Positions 1,459 to 40,110 of a stretch of 52,420 nucleotides of DNA are shown here, one piece after another (within the stretch, counting starts at the first letter, position 1; each line of letters opens with the position of its first letter). Under the pieces are notes generated by a model. It worked only from the letters and a program-made list of their open reading frames with translations, was not told the origin of the DNA and ran no database searches. Origin of the DNA: Acidobacteriota bacterium (lineage in GTDB: Bacteria; Acidobacteriota; UBA6911; RPQK01; JAJDTT01). Location: positions 1 to 52,420 of the forward strand of contig JAJDTT010000240.1 of assembly GCA_022827025.1 (NCBI GenBank), in the 5' to 3' direction. The position numbers were made by a program, and so were the translations under genes.

Positions 1459-2712
1459 TCAAAAGAGCCTGTGGACCGGGACCGCCCAAATACCCGGCTC
1501 CAACTCCAAAAGATCCTCGCCCCGGTGGACGACCAGGCCGCCGAGCCACTCGTCTCCCAACGCCTCTCCCAACACGCGCAGCCCGGAGGAGTCGACCCTC
1601 TCCACCCGGGCGCGGTTCTTCACCTCGATGCCGAAGACGCCGGCCGAGGTCGTGACCAGAAGATCGACTTCCCGTCCCGACCGCGTGCGGTAGAACCACA
1701 GCATCGCGTCGCGCCCGAGGGTGTCGATCCACTTGCGGGCCTCCGCTACGACCAGCGTCTCGAACAGAGGTCCGGTGATCTCGCCCCAAAAACCGGTCCC
1801 CTGGCGCAGCAGACCCAGGTCCATCCAGTAGAGTTTGGGGCTCTTCACCGTCGAGCTGGTGAGGTTGCGCGCATACGGCGGCAGCAACGCGACCTGGTAG
1901 GACAGCCGGAGGTACTCCAGGTAACGGCGGGCCGTGGCGGCGCTGACGGCCGCATCCCGACCCAACTTGGCGTAGTTGAGGAGTTGTCCGGTACGGAGCA
2001 TGGCCAGCCGTTGCAGTAAGCGAAACGGCAACAGGTCGGCGACGCGGGTCAAGTCGGCAAGGTCACGCTCGAGCCACGTCTGCTGGTAGGAGCGCAGCCA
2101 ATCGCGCCTGTCCCCATCGTCCAGCGACAGGAGCTCGGGCATCCCGCCCCAAGCCGTGAGATTATCGATTGCCTCAACGCGCGCCGTCGCCTCGTCACCC
2201 AGCAGCCGCGGCGGCTCTTCACCGAGGATCGCCGAGAATGCGTCCGGTCCGGTGATGAGCCGATCGAACAGCGGACGGGGCGGAGTGAACCCGACGGCGC
2301 AACGCAACTCGGAAGCCGTGAGCGGCCATAGATCGTAGACGAACGCCCGGCCGGCCAGCGACTCCCGGATGCGTTTCAGGAGCAGGAATCGGGACGAACC
2401 CAGCAGGACCGAGAACGAGAGATGGCCCTCATCGTAGGCCAGTTTCACCTTGTCGAAGACACCAGGTTCCTTCTGAGCCTCGTCGATCACGGCTGCGCCG
2501 ACGACCCGGCCCCAACTGCCGCTGCGCAAGGCGCGCACCGCCTCCCGTTCCTCGATCGCGTCCAGGTTCAGATACCGCAGATCGCGGTAAAGACTCCGGG
2601 CCAGCGTGGTTTTTCCGGTCTGACGCGCTCCGGTCAGAACCACCAGGCGGCGCTTGTCCGCGGTTGGCAGCCGTGTGGTGAGCCACCGGAATCTCTGTAT
2701 ATTCGTTCTCAT
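1459..2712 (-). CDS. DUF4143-type AAA ATPase
   Basis: A 417-residue protein of the AAA_14/DUF4143 family, common in bacteria and archaea but of unknown role. The N-terminal ATPase shows Walker A GARQTGKT (28-35), Walker B AAVIDEAQK (Asp77-Glu78) and a sensor-like LLGSSRFLLL. The C-terminal half carries GREVDLLV followed by EVKNR, the usual DUF4143 end, which resembles a PD-(D/E)XK nuclease core. Such proteins are often mobile singletons. I chose ATG 2712; a TTG two codons upstream is less likely. A good -35/-10 pair lies just upstream, with the -10 only 8 bases from the ATG and no Shine-Dalgarno sequence. Confidence 0.85.
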   Translation of the reverse strand: MRTNIQRFRWLTTRLPTADKRRLVVLTGARQTGKTTLARSLYRDLRYLNLDAIEEREAVRALRSGSWGRVVGAAVIDEAQKEPGVFDKVKLAYDEGHLSFSVLLGSSRFLLLKRIRESLAGRAFVYDLWPLTASELRCAVGFTPPRPLFDRLITGPDAFSAILGEEPPRLLGDEATARVEAIDNLTAWGGMPELLSLDDGDRRDWLRSYQQTWLERDLADLTRVADLLPFRLLQRLAMLRTGQLLNYAKLGRDAAVSAATARRYLEYLRLSYQVALLPPYARNLTSSTVKSPKLYWMDLGLLRQGTGFWGEITGPLFETLVVAEARKWIDTLGRDAMLWFYRTRSGREVDLLVTTSAGVFGIEVKNRARVERVDSSGLRVLGEALGDEWLGGLVVHRGEDLLELEPGIWAVPVHRLF

Positions 2713-2720
2713 TAACAACG

Positions 2721-2750
2721 ATATTACAGGTTTATCAGTCTCACCATCAA
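2721..2750 (-). promoter_or_regulatory. Sigma70-like promoter of the DUF4143 ATPase
   Basis: On the minus strand TTGATG (2750-2745), an 18-base spacer and TAATAT (2726-2721) form a near-consensus promoter. Transcription should begin close to the ATG at 2712, which implies little or no leader. Confidence 0.6.
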
Positions 2751-2858
2751 TGGATTTTCTGTATTTTCATCTTTACCAAGAGTGAACACACAATTCGTCT
2801 GGCCTCCGCCGCCGGCTCTCCCTGGTGAAGCCGGGATCAACCCTGCGGTACCATTACC

Positions 2859-19107: not shown

Positions 19108-20303
19108 TCCCCACTCCTCCTCGTCTCTGTTTCCTGTCCCCGCCCCCATTCCACTGCCAGCCGCAGAAGACCCGAATCGGAACCGCCGTGGGTCACGGCG
19201 AAGGGTTCCTTCTTCTCGGCCAGGTCGTAGGACTGGAGACCGGCGGTGTCGGTGGCCACGACGTTGAAGTAGTACCGGCCTTCCAACAGCGCCAGGCGGG
19301 GAAAAACCACCCGGGCGTGGTACTCGCCGGGACCGGCTTCCCGGAGCGGGACGCCGTCGAACACGGTGCTGGTGACGTAGACGACAACTCCGTCGTCCCG
19401 CACCACGGCGACCCCCAGGCCGGGAGTCCCGCGAAACTCGGGGAGAAAGCGGGCCGACACGTCCAACTCCAGGCTCTCGCCGGTCCGGAAAGGCCCGGTC
19501 CGGGGACGTTCGAGCCTGACCTCCTCGACCCAGCAGATCTTTCGAGAACCGGCCTCGCGGGCCTGGAGCGGGTCCCATTCCCGGCTCCCGGTCCGGCAGA
19601 AATCACGGTACCGCCCCACCACGTCGCGGCTTGAGCCCATGGCTTGGACCCGCCCGCGATGCAGCCACAGGGCCCTGGAACAGAAGGTCTCGACCTGATG
19701 GAGGGCGTGGGAGCACAAGACGGCGGTGCAGCCTCGGTCCCGGAGGTCCTGGATTCGATTCAGGCACCTGCTCTGGAACTCGCCGTCGCCCACGGCCAGG
19801 ACCTCATCCAGGATCAGGACATCCGGCTCGAAATCGGTCGCCAGGGAGAAGGCAAGGCGCAGCATCATGCCTGCGGAGTAGGTCTTGAGCGGCCGATCGA
19901 TCTCGTCGCCCAGGCCACTGAATTCGATGATCCCGGACTCGCGGCGGACGATCTCCTCCCTGGAAAAACCGGCCAGCGCGCCCCCGAAGTAGAGGTTTCG
20001 CCTTCCCGTGAACTCCGGATCGAAACCGACGCCCAATTCCAGAAGCGCCGCCACCCGGCCCCGGACCTGGACATCTCCGCTGGTGGGAGCGCAGGTACCG
20101 GCCAAGATCTTGAGCAGCGTCGTCTTCCCCGCCCCGTTGTTGCCGACGATGCCGAAACTTTCGCCGCGCCGGACCTGAAAGTCGACCGATTTCAGGGCCG
20201 CGAAGCGCCGATGGGAAGGTCTCCCGGAACCGAGCTCCCGCAACAGGGCAAATGGGCCCGGATAGGACTTGTAGACCTTGCTGATCTGAAGGGCCCGGAT
20301 CAC
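19104..20303 (-). CDS. Wzt/TagH-like ABC transporter ATPase
   Basis: A 399-residue ATPase of the class that drives export of polysaccharides such as O-antigen or teichoic acid. Walker A is GNNGAGKTT (54-62), the signature is the degenerate YSAGM (142-146) typical of Wzt/TagH, and Walker B is DVLILDEVLAVGD. Residues about 250-390 form a beta-rich C-terminal domain like Wzt_C, which in relatives binds the polysaccharide end. No permease gene is in the window, so the partner is elsewhere. The start is GTG with TATACT exactly 6 bases upstream and no Shine-Dalgarno; the stop overlaps the next gene by 4 bases. Confidence 0.9.
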   Translation of the reverse strand: MIRALQISKVYKSYPGPFALLRELGSGRPSHRRFAALKSVDFQVRRGESFGIVGNNGAGKTTLLKILAGTCAPTSGDVQVRGRVAALLELGVGFDPEFTGRRNLYFGGALAGFSREEIVRRESGIIEFSGLGDEIDRPLKTYSAGMMLRLAFSLATDFEPDVLILDEVLAVGDGEFQSRCLNRIQDLRDRGCTAVLCSHALHQVETFCSRALWLHRGRVQAMGSSRDVVGRYRDFCRTGSREWDPLQAREAGSRKICWVEEVRLERPRTGPFRTGESLELDVSARFLPEFRGTPGLGVAVVRDDGVVVYVTSTVFDGVPLREAGPGEYHARVVFPRLALLEGRYYFNVVATDTAGLQSYDLAEKKEPFAVTHGGSDSGLLRLAVEWGRGQETETRRSGE

Positions 20304-20309
20304 GTCGGG

Positions 20310-20315
20310 AGTATA
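20310..20315 (-). promoter_or_regulatory. Extended -10 box of the ABC ATPase gene
   Basis: TGATATACT on the minus strand is a TGn-extended -10 box. Its TATACT ends 6 bases before the GTG start, so a transcript from it would be leaderless. The gene could still also be reached from the upstream operon. Confidence 0.5.
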
Positions 20316-23287: not shown

Positions 23288-23318
23288 GCGTGAGACTTTC
23301 GCCGCAGGCTGTTAAGAT
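23288..23318 (+). promoter_or_regulatory. Repeated extended -10 promoter-like motif upstream of Gfo/Idh gene
   Basis: GAGACTTTCGCCGCAG is followed by GCTGTTAAGAT, in which TGTTAAGAT is a TGn-extended -10 box. Close copies lie at 29122-29150, 39904-39932 and 40079-40110. The start codon is 36 bases beyond the -10, and GCGAGGTGAG acts as Shine-Dalgarno. Confidence 0.55.
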
Positions 23319-25207: not shown

Positions 25208-25444
25208 CCGATTCGCGTCCCCCTGGGATCGAGTTAAGGGGTGCGGCACCGAGCAAATCGGTCAAGGCCGCCAGCGTCAAGTTGTAGGGAGACGCTACTA
25301 TGCCCTGCCGCTGCCGGCGAGTTGGGTGTCAGGCAAGATGTCAAGTTATTGGGAGCATTCAGCATAACCATTTGTAATTCCATCACTTAGCTTGTCAAAC
25401 AAGCTGTCGCAATACGTGTCAGTCAAATATGGAACACCGGAATC
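25208..25444. other. Lower-GC intergenic stretch with a perfect hairpin
   Basis: This gap marks the left edge of a lower-GC patch. GTCAAGTT followed by GGGAG occurs twice (about 25276-25290 and 25340-25354). The hairpin at 25389-25405 lies 40 bases before the small ORF at 25445. A 25-codon Cys-rich frame at 25300-25377, preceded by AGGGAG, is noted but not called a gene. Confidence 0.45.
25389..25405. repeat. Perfect inverted repeat upstream of NYN module
   Basis: AGCTTGT (25389-25395), loop CAA, ACAAGCT (25399-25405). It is a perfect 7-base stem just before the small ORF and the NYN gene. It could be an operator or a small transcript hairpin; there is no T-run for a terminator. Confidence 0.5.
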
Positions 25445-25567
25445 ATGGCGCCGAAGGTTTATCGCACAATGCTCCAGTTCAAAGCCGGCCGGAAATTAGC
25501 CGCCTCGCAGCCGGAGCGGGAACCGGAACAAGCTGTGTTGATCGAAGAGGAGCACGAATCGGAATGA
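25445..25567 (+). CDS. Small ORF coupled to NYN gene, 40 residues
   Basis: An ATG-started frame of 40 codons whose TGA overlaps the NYN start as ATGA, the pattern of translational coupling. The product begins MAPKVYRTML, is basic in its first half and strongly acidic at its end (EEEHESE). I do not recognise it. The frame contains GAGGAG, which would also serve the NYN gene. The overlap favours a real gene, for instance a small partner or leader peptide, but the length and unknown family keep confidence low. Confidence 0.4.
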   Translation: MAPKVYRTMLQFKAGRKLAASQPEREPEQAVLIEEEHESE

Positions 25568-26196
25568 ACCGCGTTTTCATATATTGGGACAATTCGAACA
25601 TCTTTCACGAGGCACAGCGCATTGCGGAGGAGCGAAATGAAGGGCCCGGCGCTCGATTTCGCGTGCGCATCCATTTCGACAACATCCTCCGTCTGGCGCA
25701 TGCCGAACGACCTATGCAGAGGGCGGTTGCGGCAGGTTCCATACCACCGGAAATGCGACAGTTGTGGAACCGGATGGAGAGCAACGGCGTAGAAGGGAAA
25801 CTCTTCGACCGCGGCGACCCGGCGCGGAGCGAACAGGGCAAACCCGACCGAATTCTCCAGTTAAGGATGTTGGAGGACGCCCTTGATTACATTGACAACC
25901 CCGGCATCGTGGTCCTCTTGACCGGCGATGGCGCCGGCTATTATGAGGGGGTCGGCTTTCATAGCACGTTGGAGCGCATGCACAAGCGCGGCTGGCGCGT
26001 AGAAATCCTGTCCTGGGGCTACTCCTGCAACCAGCGGATGCGCCGGTGGGCGGAAGAGAACGGCTTGTTCGTGGCGTTGGACGACTTCTACGAGTCGATC
26101 ACCTTCATGGAGCCGTCCAGGCCGGGGTTCGAGTTTGCCCGTGGGCGTGAAGCAGTCGGCATGGAGCTGTCGCATCGGTCGACGACTCGAAGCTGA
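25564..26196 (+). CDS. NYN-domain protein, LabA-like
   Basis: A 210-residue protein with the NYN fold, a PIN-like domain often found in RNases. The opening MNRVFIYWDNSNIFHEA carries the first acidic site; a second patch is RILQLRMLEDALDYID, and the third is IVVLLTGDGAGYYEGVGF, after which WRVEILSWGYSCNQRMRRW matches the end of LabA-like proteins. The Asp pair often seen as TGDGD is reduced to TGDGAG. I chose ATG 25564; the frame reaches 25429 but that part overlaps the small ORF. A role in RNA cleavage, defence or toxin function is inferred from family and context only. Confidence 0.8.
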   Translation: MNRVFIYWDNSNIFHEAQRIAEERNEGPGARFRVRIHFDNILRLAHAERPMQRAVAAGSIPPEMRQLWNRMESNGVEGKLFDRGDPARSEQGKPDRILQLRMLEDALDYIDNPGIVVLLTGDGAGYYEGVGFHSTLERMHKRGWRVEILSWGYSCNQRMRRWAEENGLFVALDDFYESITFMEPSRPGFEFARGREAVGMELSHRSTTRS

Positions 26197-26315
26197 GTCG
26201 AGCGACCCGTTCGAACAGCTGGGACACAAGGCGTAGCCATAGACGACTGTAGTTGATCTTTACGAATCTGCGTCCCCCATATGGGAAACTGCTCGTCAAG
26301 AAACAAGCGACATCA

Positions 26316-27341
26316 ATGACTCCAGCCGCGCAAGTCTCCGACGATGTGTGGAACCGACTGAAGCAGTCACGGGAGTTCGATGTACGCTTGGGCGAAGAGA
26401 CCCTCACGGATATCCTCACCCTTGATTTTACCCGGTTGTCCGGAGGACATAAGGTCAAGATTCGCCAGACAGAGAAGCATGAGGAGGCACAGAACGGCGC
26501 CGATCTGGAGATCTTCGTGAACATCGGTGGAGGCTCAGCGTTTCGATACGCCGTGCAAGCAAAAAAACTCTACCCTGAGGGGAAATACCGTTATCTCAAG
26601 GCGAAAGCGGGAAAAAGCGGCCCGTTTCAATTGGATGTATTGGAAGCTGCCGCCAAGGCTAATGGAATTCTTCCCTACTACCTGTTGTACAACTACGTTG
26701 ATCGCGTAAACACGGATCAGCATTGGCATTGCTGCCAATCTCCCGACGAGAATCAGTTTGGCTGCACCCTCGTTCCCAGTTGGCGCGTTCGTCAAGCCAT
26801 TGATCCACCTTGCTGTCGGACGTTCAAATTCCTGCATTCCTTTCCGGAAGCGTTACCTTTCCGCTGTCGTTTCGACTGTCCGCGTGACGCAAGGTGGGAT
26901 CGAAAATGTGAGACTGAACGGTCCCATTTCAAATCTCATGGATCCACCATTACTTTTCAGGAAGCGCCCGATTGGTGGAAGGATCTGGAACGACGCGAAC
27001 ACGAATGGCCCGAATGGTTATGGGAACGAGAAGGCCCACAGTTGTCCATGGACGATACGAGGAGATTGTGGCCCGAGCTGATCTCCGACACTCTTGAAAC
27101 TTCTCTTGGTGCGGAGCATCCACGCGGGCCAAGCGTGCGCCTGTCGGTTCCACGCAGGATTTTGTTGATTGGACCGGACACGTGTACCGATGAACCCGAA
27201 CGGGGACGAAATGGAGTCCTTTCACCCAATGGAAGCGGCAGCTCTGCCAAGGGCGGCTTGGAACTCGTGGAACGACGTCTGCCACCACACTGTCGGACAC
27301 GCCAAATGAAGTCTGGTAAGGGAACTGCGAGACGCGCGTAA
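26316..27341 (+). CDS. DUF6615-like protein with nuclease-like core
   Basis: A 341-residue protein resembling the DUF6615 family, function unknown. ETLTDILTLDF, then NGADLEIFVN and YAVQAKKLY give an acidic residue, an Asp-x-Glu and a Gln-x-Lys in the order of a PD-(D/E)XK-type nuclease core. KAKAGKSGPFQLDVLEAA and ILPYYLLYNYVD follow, as in DUF6615. The last 75 or so residues are rich in Arg, Pro and Gly and read less like protein; a one-base shift near 27100-27120 would instead give an end with DFVDWTGHVYR and stop at 27193. ATG 26316 was chosen over a TTG at 26253. GC is visibly lower than in ruvA beside it. Confidence 0.6.
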   Translation: MTPAAQVSDDVWNRLKQSREFDVRLGEETLTDILTLDFTRLSGGHKVKIRQTEKHEEAQNGADLEIFVNIGGGSAFRYAVQAKKLYPEGKYRYLKAKAGKSGPFQLDVLEAAAKANGILPYYLLYNYVDRVNTDQHWHCCQSPDENQFGCTLVPSWRVRQAIDPPCCRTFKFLHSFPEALPFRCRFDCPRDARWDRKCETERSHFKSHGSTITFQEAPDWWKDLERREHEWPEWLWEREGPQLSMDDTRRLWPELISDTLETSLGAEHPRGPSVRLSVPRRILLIGPDTCTDEPERGRNGVLSPNGSGSSAKGGLELVERRLPPHCRTRQMKSGKGTARRA

Positions 27342-27404: not shown

Positions 27405-27410
27405 TATAAT
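27405..27410 (+). promoter_or_regulatory. -10 box of ruvA, leaderless geometry
   Basis: A consensus TATAAT ends 6 bases before the ruvA ATG. No Shine-Dalgarno fits in that space, so the transcript from it would start at or near the start codon. A clear -35 box is not visible. Confidence 0.6.
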
Positions 27411-29121: not shown

Positions 29122-29150
29122 GCGACTTTCGCGGAGGGCTGCTATCATAC
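29122..29150 (+). promoter_or_regulatory. Repeated promoter-like motif upstream of moxR
   Basis: GCGACTTTCGCGGAGG plus GCTGCTATCAT is a diverged copy of the motif at 23288-23318. TGCTATCAT is a TGn-extended -10 box whose TATCAT (29143-29148) ends 6 bases before the GTG start at 29155, so a leaderless transcript is likely. Confidence 0.55.
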
Positions 29151-36208: not shown

Positions 36209-36346
36209 CTACGAACGCGAAGCTGTTGCACCGGAATGGCACTCTCTATCCGACCTCCTGTCCAACCCTCTCCGCCTGTTCCTCTGACTGTTCAAAATAA
36301 GGGAAAGTCATTGCCGCGCCGGATTGACCCCGGCGAGCTACAGCCG

Positions 36347-36352
36347 TAGTCT
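36347..36352 (+). promoter_or_regulatory. -10-like box before the Trm112-like gene
   Basis: TAGTCT ends 6 bases before the GTG start at 36359, matching the leaderless geometry at ruvA, moxR and the ABC ATPase gene. The box itself is a weak match to TATAAT. Confidence 0.35.
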
Positions 36353-39909: not shown

Positions 39910-39949
39910 GACTTTCGCCACGGACTGTTAACAGCCCGCGGCAAAAGTC
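39910..39949. repeat. 40-bp head-to-head palindrome of the repeated promoter-like motif
   Basis: GACTTTCGCCACGGACTGTT (39910-39929) is followed at once by a right arm (39930-39949) whose reverse complement matches it at 17 of 20 bases, centred on TTAA. Each arm equals the conserved part of the motif at 23288-23318 and 40079-40110, so divergent transcription or a DNA-binding protein site is possible. Confidence 0.75.
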
Positions 39950-40002
39950 GTCACGGCATTCGACCGCCCCTGCATCCCGGCGGACTGCGTTGCGTTTCGG
40001 GA

Positions 40003-40023
40003 GGGCGACCACAAGGGTCGCCC
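40003..40023. repeat. Dispersed hairpin repeat, GACC variant
   Basis: Arms GGGCGACC (40003-40010) and GGTCGCCC (40016-40023) around ACAAG, then CTAC. It is the same core as at 8611-8631 and 36188-36208. Confidence 0.75.
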
Positions 40024-40078
40024 CTACATGCACCCGAATCGCGCCTTGTCCGGCGGGCGCAGGAACGGTCTCGATGCT

Positions 40079-40110
40079 CGCGAGACTTTCACCGCGGGCT
40101 GTTAAACTGA
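40079..40110 (+). promoter_or_regulatory. Repeated extended -10 promoter-like motif before the 89-residue gene
   Basis: CGAGACTTTCACCGCGG plus GCTGTTAAACT. TGTTAAACT is a TGn-extended -10 box; its TAAACT (40103-40108) ends 8 bases before the ATG at 40117. Confidence 0.5.

Follow-up and report, generated by a model that had tools for sequence, protein, structure and literature searches.

Start codons placed directly behind a promoter are well known: -10 boxes abutting the coding sequence, which give leaderless mRNAs, are an established kind of gene start (PMC3160421). Table 2 of Zheng et al. 2011 (PMC3160421) gives TA-led leaderless genes in three of three Acidobacteria genomes, at an average of 13.3% (9.7-19.4). 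In Deinococcus, Zhong et al. 2025 (PMC12340547) report a -10 motif adjacent to open reading frames (ORFs), tested by experiment and found at about one-third of genes. MITEs that carry promoters, e.g., Correia elements with their sigma70-like promoter parts, are also known (reviewed in PMC10969869). As far as we found, leaderless genes in Acidobacteriota rest on one computational survey, and we found no transcript-start map for this phylum in the open-access literature. Here we trace individual start-abutting boxes in one such genome. What is new is a motif at three of these sites that resembles the ends of a MITE restricted to the genus; at two of the three, some genomes have this MITE inserted in the TA of the -10 box, with the box intact on the gene side.

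The window, i.e., the whole 52,420-nucleotide stretch that was analyzed, is one contig of a 5.33-Mb genome assembly of 318 contigs. This genome is designated G000, and the genomes of its genus are G000 to G003. The closest RuvB, at 97% identity, is labeled Candidatus Aminicenantes, and the next ones, at 75 to 76%, are labeled Acidobacteria or Acidobacteriota; we therefore regard G000 as a member of Acidobacteriota. Along the window G+C is 61 to 66%, and no Rfam family was found within it at gathering score. An earlier note had claimed that six genes here have a -10 box 6 to 8 nt before the start codon and lack a Shine-Dalgarno (SD) sequence there. All six boxes were located as written, at the claimed spacings (Table 1), and no SD was seen at any of the six starts, judged by eye. 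By Pfam, the genes encode an ABC ATPase (ABC_tran plus Wzt_C), RuvA, a MoxR protein (AAA_3), a Trm112-like protein (Trm112p), and a DUF4143 ATPase (AAA_14 plus DUF4143). The sixth, an 89-amino-acid (89-aa) gene, had no match in a Pfam search and is present in 16 of 40 genomes, its own counted. The gene starting at ATG 2862, which has a seventh such site, is a Peptidase_M3. The DUF4143 ATPase gene (1459-2712) gave 23 matched stretches in its own genome, where one gene can give two, 11 to 23 in the other genus genomes, 23 in G011, and 0 to 8 in the remaining genomes searched.

Table 1. Start-abutting boxes, upstream promoter parts, and MITE-related features, in positions of the window
Feature	Position	Strand	Remarks
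ABC ATPase (Wzt-type) -10, TATACT	20310..20315	-	N6, then GTG 20303..20301; preceded by GGCTGA (extended -10, TGn); TGn-TATACT-N6-GTG in 4/4 genus genomes
ruvA -10, TATAAT	27405..27410	+	N6, then ATG 27417; same in G001, none in G002/G003
moxR -10, TATCAT	29143..29148	+	N6, then GTG 29155; 4/4 genus genomes
Trm112-like gene -10, TAGTCT	36347..36352	+	N6, then GTG 36359; TARTCT-N6-RTG in 4/4 genus genomes
DUF4143 ATPase -10, TAATAT	2721..2726	-	N8, then ATG 2712..2710; CTGTAATAT-N8-RTG in 4/4 genus genomes
89-aa gene -10, TAAACT	40103..40108	+	N8, then ATG 40117; preceded by TGn; TAAACT/TACACT-N8 in the 3 genus genomes in which it was found
Seventh site, M3 peptidase gene -10, TACCAT	2849..2854	+	N7, then ATG 2862; divergent from DUF4143 gene
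Trm112-like gene -35, TTGACC	36324..36329	+	17 nt before -10 (18 in the other three genus genomes); CCGGATTGACCCCGGCGAG in 4/4 genus genomes
DUF4143 -35-like, TTGATG	2745..2750	-	18 nt before TAATAT; TTGAT in 3/4 genus genomes, TTGGC in G001
MITE-like element, 170 bp, CAG...CTG	39932..40101	+	Flanked by TTAA 39928-39931 and TTAA 40102-40105; right end abuts 89-aa gene -10; site empty in G001
Half-site GACTTTCGCCACGGACTG	39910..39927	+	Third half-site, on far side of MITE; aligns with sequence before the empty site in G001
Half-site GACTTTCGCGGAGGGCTG, 18 nt	29124..29141	+	2 mismatches to MITE-end pattern; ends 1 nt before moxR -10
Half-site GACTTTCGCCGCAGGCTG	23294..23318	+	Followed by T and TAAGAT, 36 nt before ATG 23355 with SD-like GAGGTG; motif at a leadered gene

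The strongest evidence for these putative start-abutting promoters is their conservation. Within the genus, box and spacing are kept at five sites in every genome in which we found the gene (4/4 for the ABC, moxR, Trm112, and DUF4143 genes, 3/3 for the 89-aa gene), and in genomes that have the box, none of the six sites has an indel between it and the start codon. The ruvA box occurs in two of the four genomes. In the window, ruvA is preceded by an NYN-domain gene and a DUF6615 gene (25429-27341); in G002 and G003, which lack the box, ruvA stands directly after sequence matching that NYN gene, so the region upstream of ruvA has been rearranged within the genus. At ATG 2862, the window has TACCAT-N7-ATG, and G001 and G003 have TAGCAT-N7-ATG.

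Beyond the genus, we examined loci in 30 of 38 matching genomes for ruvA and in 30 of 40 for moxR. The script used for the order and class considers several in-frame starts and distances and keeps whichever fits best, which makes its raw tallies too generous (ruvA, 13/13 in the order and 2/13 in the class; moxR, 7/16 in the class). Counting only exact TATAAT at the aligned ATG, and leaving out G004, G007, and G016, TATAAT-N7-9-ATG precedes ruvA in 10 of 13 other genomes of the order, despite otherwise different upstream DNA, and in none of the 13 genomes examined in the rest of the class. At moxR, TANNNT-N6-8-RTG is found in 8 of 10 others of the order (TATCAT in five) and is absent in G006 and G012; six of the eight order genomes with the box have TTGA 17 to 18 nt above it. 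In the rest of the class, TATACT-N7-9-ATG is present at 6 of 16 moxR loci, a count that takes only TATACT, leaves out one TACTAT, and draws several of its six loci from one genus. The 89-aa gene has TGn-TANNNT-N6-9-ATG in 8 of 10 others of the order, again with no box in G006 and G012, and in two of three in the rest of the class. All 14 boxes found at this gene across genus, order, and class are preceded by TGn. The ABC gene has a box at two of six loci outside the genus, both without TGn. At the aligned Trm112 start, none of nine loci outside the genus has a start-abutting box, and seven of the nine are SD-like. For the DUF4143 site, the comparison covered the genus.

Upstream of the boxes, two promoter types can be distinguished. 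In the first, a -35 box lies 17 to 18 nt away (Trm112, DUF4143, and, in most of the order, moxR); in the second, the -10 is extended by TGn (ABC, the 89-aa gene, and, in this genus, moxR). The moxR gene of G000 has no recognizable -35. The three genes of the second type have a relative of GACTTTCGCCACGGGCTG just before the box, with 6 (ABC), 2 (moxR), and 0 (89-aa gene) mismatches, and the ruvA, Trm112, and DUF4143 sites are without this motif (11 to 15 mismatches). The earlier note had missed this shared motif and its relation to a mobile repeat.

The motif resembles the ends of a multicopy element with terminal inverted repeats that measures 157 to 170 bp in 43 of 47 paired ends. With up to two mismatches, the 18-nt end has 105 matches in its own genome versus 4 for the reversed pattern, and 84 to 285 in each of the four genus genomes. 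In the other genomes among the 40, matches to the 18-mer are at about background, except in G033 (37) and G025 (15). These two genomes belong to another family of the class, and their matches compare with 1 and 3 for the reversed control.

Comparison of genomes reveals where the element inserted. G003 has a complete MITE between ruvB and moxR, and the site is empty in G000 and G001; the copy went into the TA of TATCAT, duplicated 4 bp, and left TATCAT unchanged next to the gene. The site at the 89-aa gene is empty in G001 and occupied in the window and in G003, again with a 4-bp duplication and an intact box on the gene side. Of 12 MITE copies in the window plus 280 kb of G001 and G003, three have clean empty sites. 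The third, at G001 134079, has the 4-bp overlap and no such motif; a fourth comparison was ragged (overlap 5) and was left out of the count. A target duplication of TA only was considered initially and was replaced by 4 bp after the empty-site comparison. A 4-bp duplication around TA is reminiscent of IS5-group elements. At both moxR and the 89-aa gene, the half-site was already in place before the MITE inserted, and TGn-TANNNT at the 89-aa gene predates the genus. The promoter therefore appears to precede the MITE.

How could a promoter tolerate such an insertion? In this genus, some promoters of the TGn type read GACTTTCGCCACGGRCTG-Y-TANNNT, and the first 18 nt of this sequence correspond to the ends of the MITE, which has a 4-bp target duplication around TA. 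A MITE entering the TA of a box would leave a gene-side copy that keeps the box, the MITE end would supply TGn, and one of its two ends would also bring a -35-like GTGACG at 18 nt. With box, TGn, and, from one end, GTGACG all in place, the promoter should survive the insertion. A further reading, possible though less likely than not, is that the ends of this genus-restricted MITE mimic what lies upstream of the box in a start-abutting promoter, so that the MITE enters the -10 TA and rebuilds the promoter on the gene side. The 18-nt half-sites left by its decay would then act as promoters, mainly for leaderless genes but also for some leadered genes and tRNA genes.

The ends were also surveyed. 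The sampled DNA has 97 distinct ends, 88 of which end in CTG (41 mated and 47 solo, a solo end having no mate 120 to 260 nt upstream). Of 50 solo ends before the CTG filter, seven were too near a locus edge to tell, and 3 of 50 apparent mates were 11-nt internal dyads. CTG-N-TA continues to TANNNT at 22 of 34 solo ends and 10 of 27 mated (MITE) ends, against a background of 53/189 for intergenic CTGNTA and 2027/9576 for intergenic TA. Thirteen ends are followed by a well-scoring ORF that starts 6 to 9 nt past the box. An ORF at locus L316 is cut off by the locus edge. A Pfam family was found for 11 of the 13 proteins, and these families differ from one another or are as broad as radical SAM. 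One solo end lies just before a tRNA-Arg gene, and others lie before leadered SD genes.

These same ends might be read differently, in which case GACTTTCGCCACGGRCTG would not be the end of a mobile element but a regulator's operator or a spacer native to the promoter. The extended consensus of 23 solo sites, CCGTGGC-GACTTTC-GCCACGG, is a dyad between -35 and -10; several solo copies have no MITE interior, and the half-site's presence before insertion at moxR and the 89-aa gene fits as well. Against this, the genes downstream are unrelated (M64 and M24 peptidases, radical SAM, SpoU methylase, BshC, and the tRNA-Arg), and there are complete elements that have the same ends and whose insertions are polymorphic. 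We consider an operator or spacer rather unlikely. The survey of ends fits a mobile element that has spread or captured promoter parts, rather than one regulon.

Turning from the element to the boxes themselves, RNA polymerase starts about 6 to 8 nt past the -10 hexamer. With N6, the first transcribed base would be the first of the start codon, and with N8, transcription would begin one or two bases before it. A start on the start codon or within about 3 nt of it would leave no room for an SD, and translation would be leaderless. From box, spacing, SD absence, conservation, and the excess of boxes at 12 to 14 nt described below, we infer both the position of the transcription start and leaderless translation. 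In our reading, the six boxes are very probably housekeeping sigma70-type -10 elements that abut the coding sequence and give mRNAs that are leaderless or nearly so, alongside genes with an SD. The earlier note had the transcripts beginning at the start codon itself. The excess and the conservation in genus and order support this, except that N8-N9 spacings leave a leader of 1 to 3 nt if transcription starts 6 to 7 nt past the box; hence our wording, leaderless or nearly so.

The boxes could also be real promoters whose functional mRNAs are leadered, either because transcription starts a few nucleotides or further upstream or because read-through supplies the main transcript. The N8-N9 spacings allow for this, a same-strand gene ends 41 nt before the ABC start and 48 nt before the moxR start, and ruvA of G002 and G003, without the box and behind the NYN-matching sequence, has an SD-like AGGA. 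However, the available space holds no SD, the spacing is N6 at four of the six sites, and D. radiodurans MP1, with boxes of a kind tested experimentally in that organism, shows the same peak among gene starts. Leadered mRNAs as the functional form are improbable, and read-through may add leadered mRNAs to leaderless ones at the ABC and moxR genes.

We likewise give a low probability to the recurrence in the window being mainly that of a dispersed repeat, whose ends happen to precede TA and look like promoters only incidentally. The motif is indeed at three of the six sites, and its matches are many in all four genus genomes. But ruvA, Trm112, and DUF4143 are without it, the moxR and 89-aa boxes persist in other genomes of the order, in which the repeat stands at background level, and solo ends continue to TANNNT far more often (22/34) than intergenic CTGNTA does (53/189).

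For gene starts at large, we sampled 1.13 Mb (the window plus further stretches of the same genome, 21% of the genome), in which a home-made gene caller (codon-pair model) yielded 706 genes with 1514 starts; these starts are candidates, not annotations. Distances were counted upstream from the candidate start to the first T of TANNNT, with 12 nt equal to N6, and the expected count at 12 to 14 nt was taken from the mean at 16 to 40 nt. TANNNT stands at 12, 13, and 14 nt in 24, 16, and 10 cases, i.e., 50 versus 26.6 expected (Poisson P, 3e-5), and near-consensus boxes (up to one mismatch to TATAAT) number 20 versus 4.7 (P, 1e-7). The same script found the same peak in the positive control, D. 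radiodurans plasmid MP1 (14 versus 2.6 expected), and no peak in the negative control, 200 kb of E. coli K-12 (10 versus 16.1). In a first sample of 737 kb, where the sum at 12 to 14 nt was set against three times the mean of 6 to 30 nt, the counts were 40 versus about 22 for TANNNT, 40 versus about 30 for the reversed box, 37 versus about 34 for the complemented box, and 18 versus about 23 for TANNNT before out-of-frame start codons. The genome-wide excess of the 6-base spacing, which the earlier note had offered as a check, is thus borne out in the 21% sample, with the highest count (24) at 12 nt.

The window is richer than average, with 9 of the 50 rows at 12 to 14 nt and 4.6% of the sampled DNA. 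Six of the nine are the sites picked out before, two (2861 and 2867) are the single gene start of the M3 peptidase (ATG 2862), and the ninth is 34145. The last was dropped from the start-abutting boxes and is probably chance, as it is not conserved in G001 or G003. As a bare pattern, TANNNT-N6-RTG is at its chance level in the window (7 found versus 6.62 expected from shuffles), and four of the seven matches are gene starts. There is next to no probability left for chance as the whole explanation, i.e., a loose TANNNT pattern with cases picked near starts: despite this whole-window count, the unconserved 34145 site, and the slight rise of the reversed box, it is ruled out by the position of the excess at 12 to 14 nt, with working positive and negative controls, and by box and spacing being kept across genomes whose upstream DNA otherwise differs.

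Other promoter parts were examined in the same rows of the 1.13-Mb sample. TTGA at -35 was tested as general support for promoters, and no enrichment was found (3 of 50 leaderless-type rows versus 17 of 222 rows with the box at 16 to 40 nt). TGn is weakly enriched (17/50 versus 46/222; P, 0.06), and the repeat-like motif is not significantly so (4/50 versus 10/222; P, 0.30). SD-like sequences occur in 6 of the 50 leaderless-type rows versus 57 of the 222. The same genome sample has an SD peak, AGGAG/GGAGG with its first base 10 to 14 nt upstream of starts, beside the TANNNT excess at 12 to 14 nt, in agreement with the claim that the two modes coexist. The excess is modest, about 23 sites among 706 genes (3.3%). 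In D. radiodurans, the same method recovers 10.6% of genes, and the published leaderless share for its phylum is 36 to 46% (PMC3160421). Scaling the 3.3% by this recovery, our guess would be roughly 12% leaderless genes here.

The conserved promoters at ruvA, moxR, and the 89-aa gene are concrete sites for tests, and they can aid the annotation of start codons in uncultured genomes. If the link to the MITE is true, it shows how a mobile element could insert into a functioning promoter and leave it unbroken, and it would be one route by which leaderless starts may arise. The MITE would then be a portable promoter seed, able to make genes leaderless and to invade the promoter of a needed gene without silencing it. 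We found the combination of a start-abutting promoter with a MITE end nowhere in the open-access literature searched, and its components each resemble described systems.

As with the TA-led leaderless genes surveyed by Zheng et al. (PMC3160421), the first T of TANNNT lies about 12 nt before the start, and SD genes occur in the same genomes. Unlike in that survey, single promoters are traced here through genus, order, and class, some with a -35 or TGn and some with a MITE-like end. The box and its distance are also those of Deinococcus (PMC12340547), as is the peak in the D. radiodurans MP1 control; in contrast to that experimental work, the evidence here is from sequence, and the excess is weaker. 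Like the Correia-type MITEs covered by the review (PMC10969869), the element is short and multicopy, has terminal inverted repeats and sigma70-like promoter parts, and lies beside genes. It differs from them in that the -10 hexamer would come largely from the target site (TA plus NNNT), that its ends abut start codons, and that insertion into an existing -10 box leaves the box intact.
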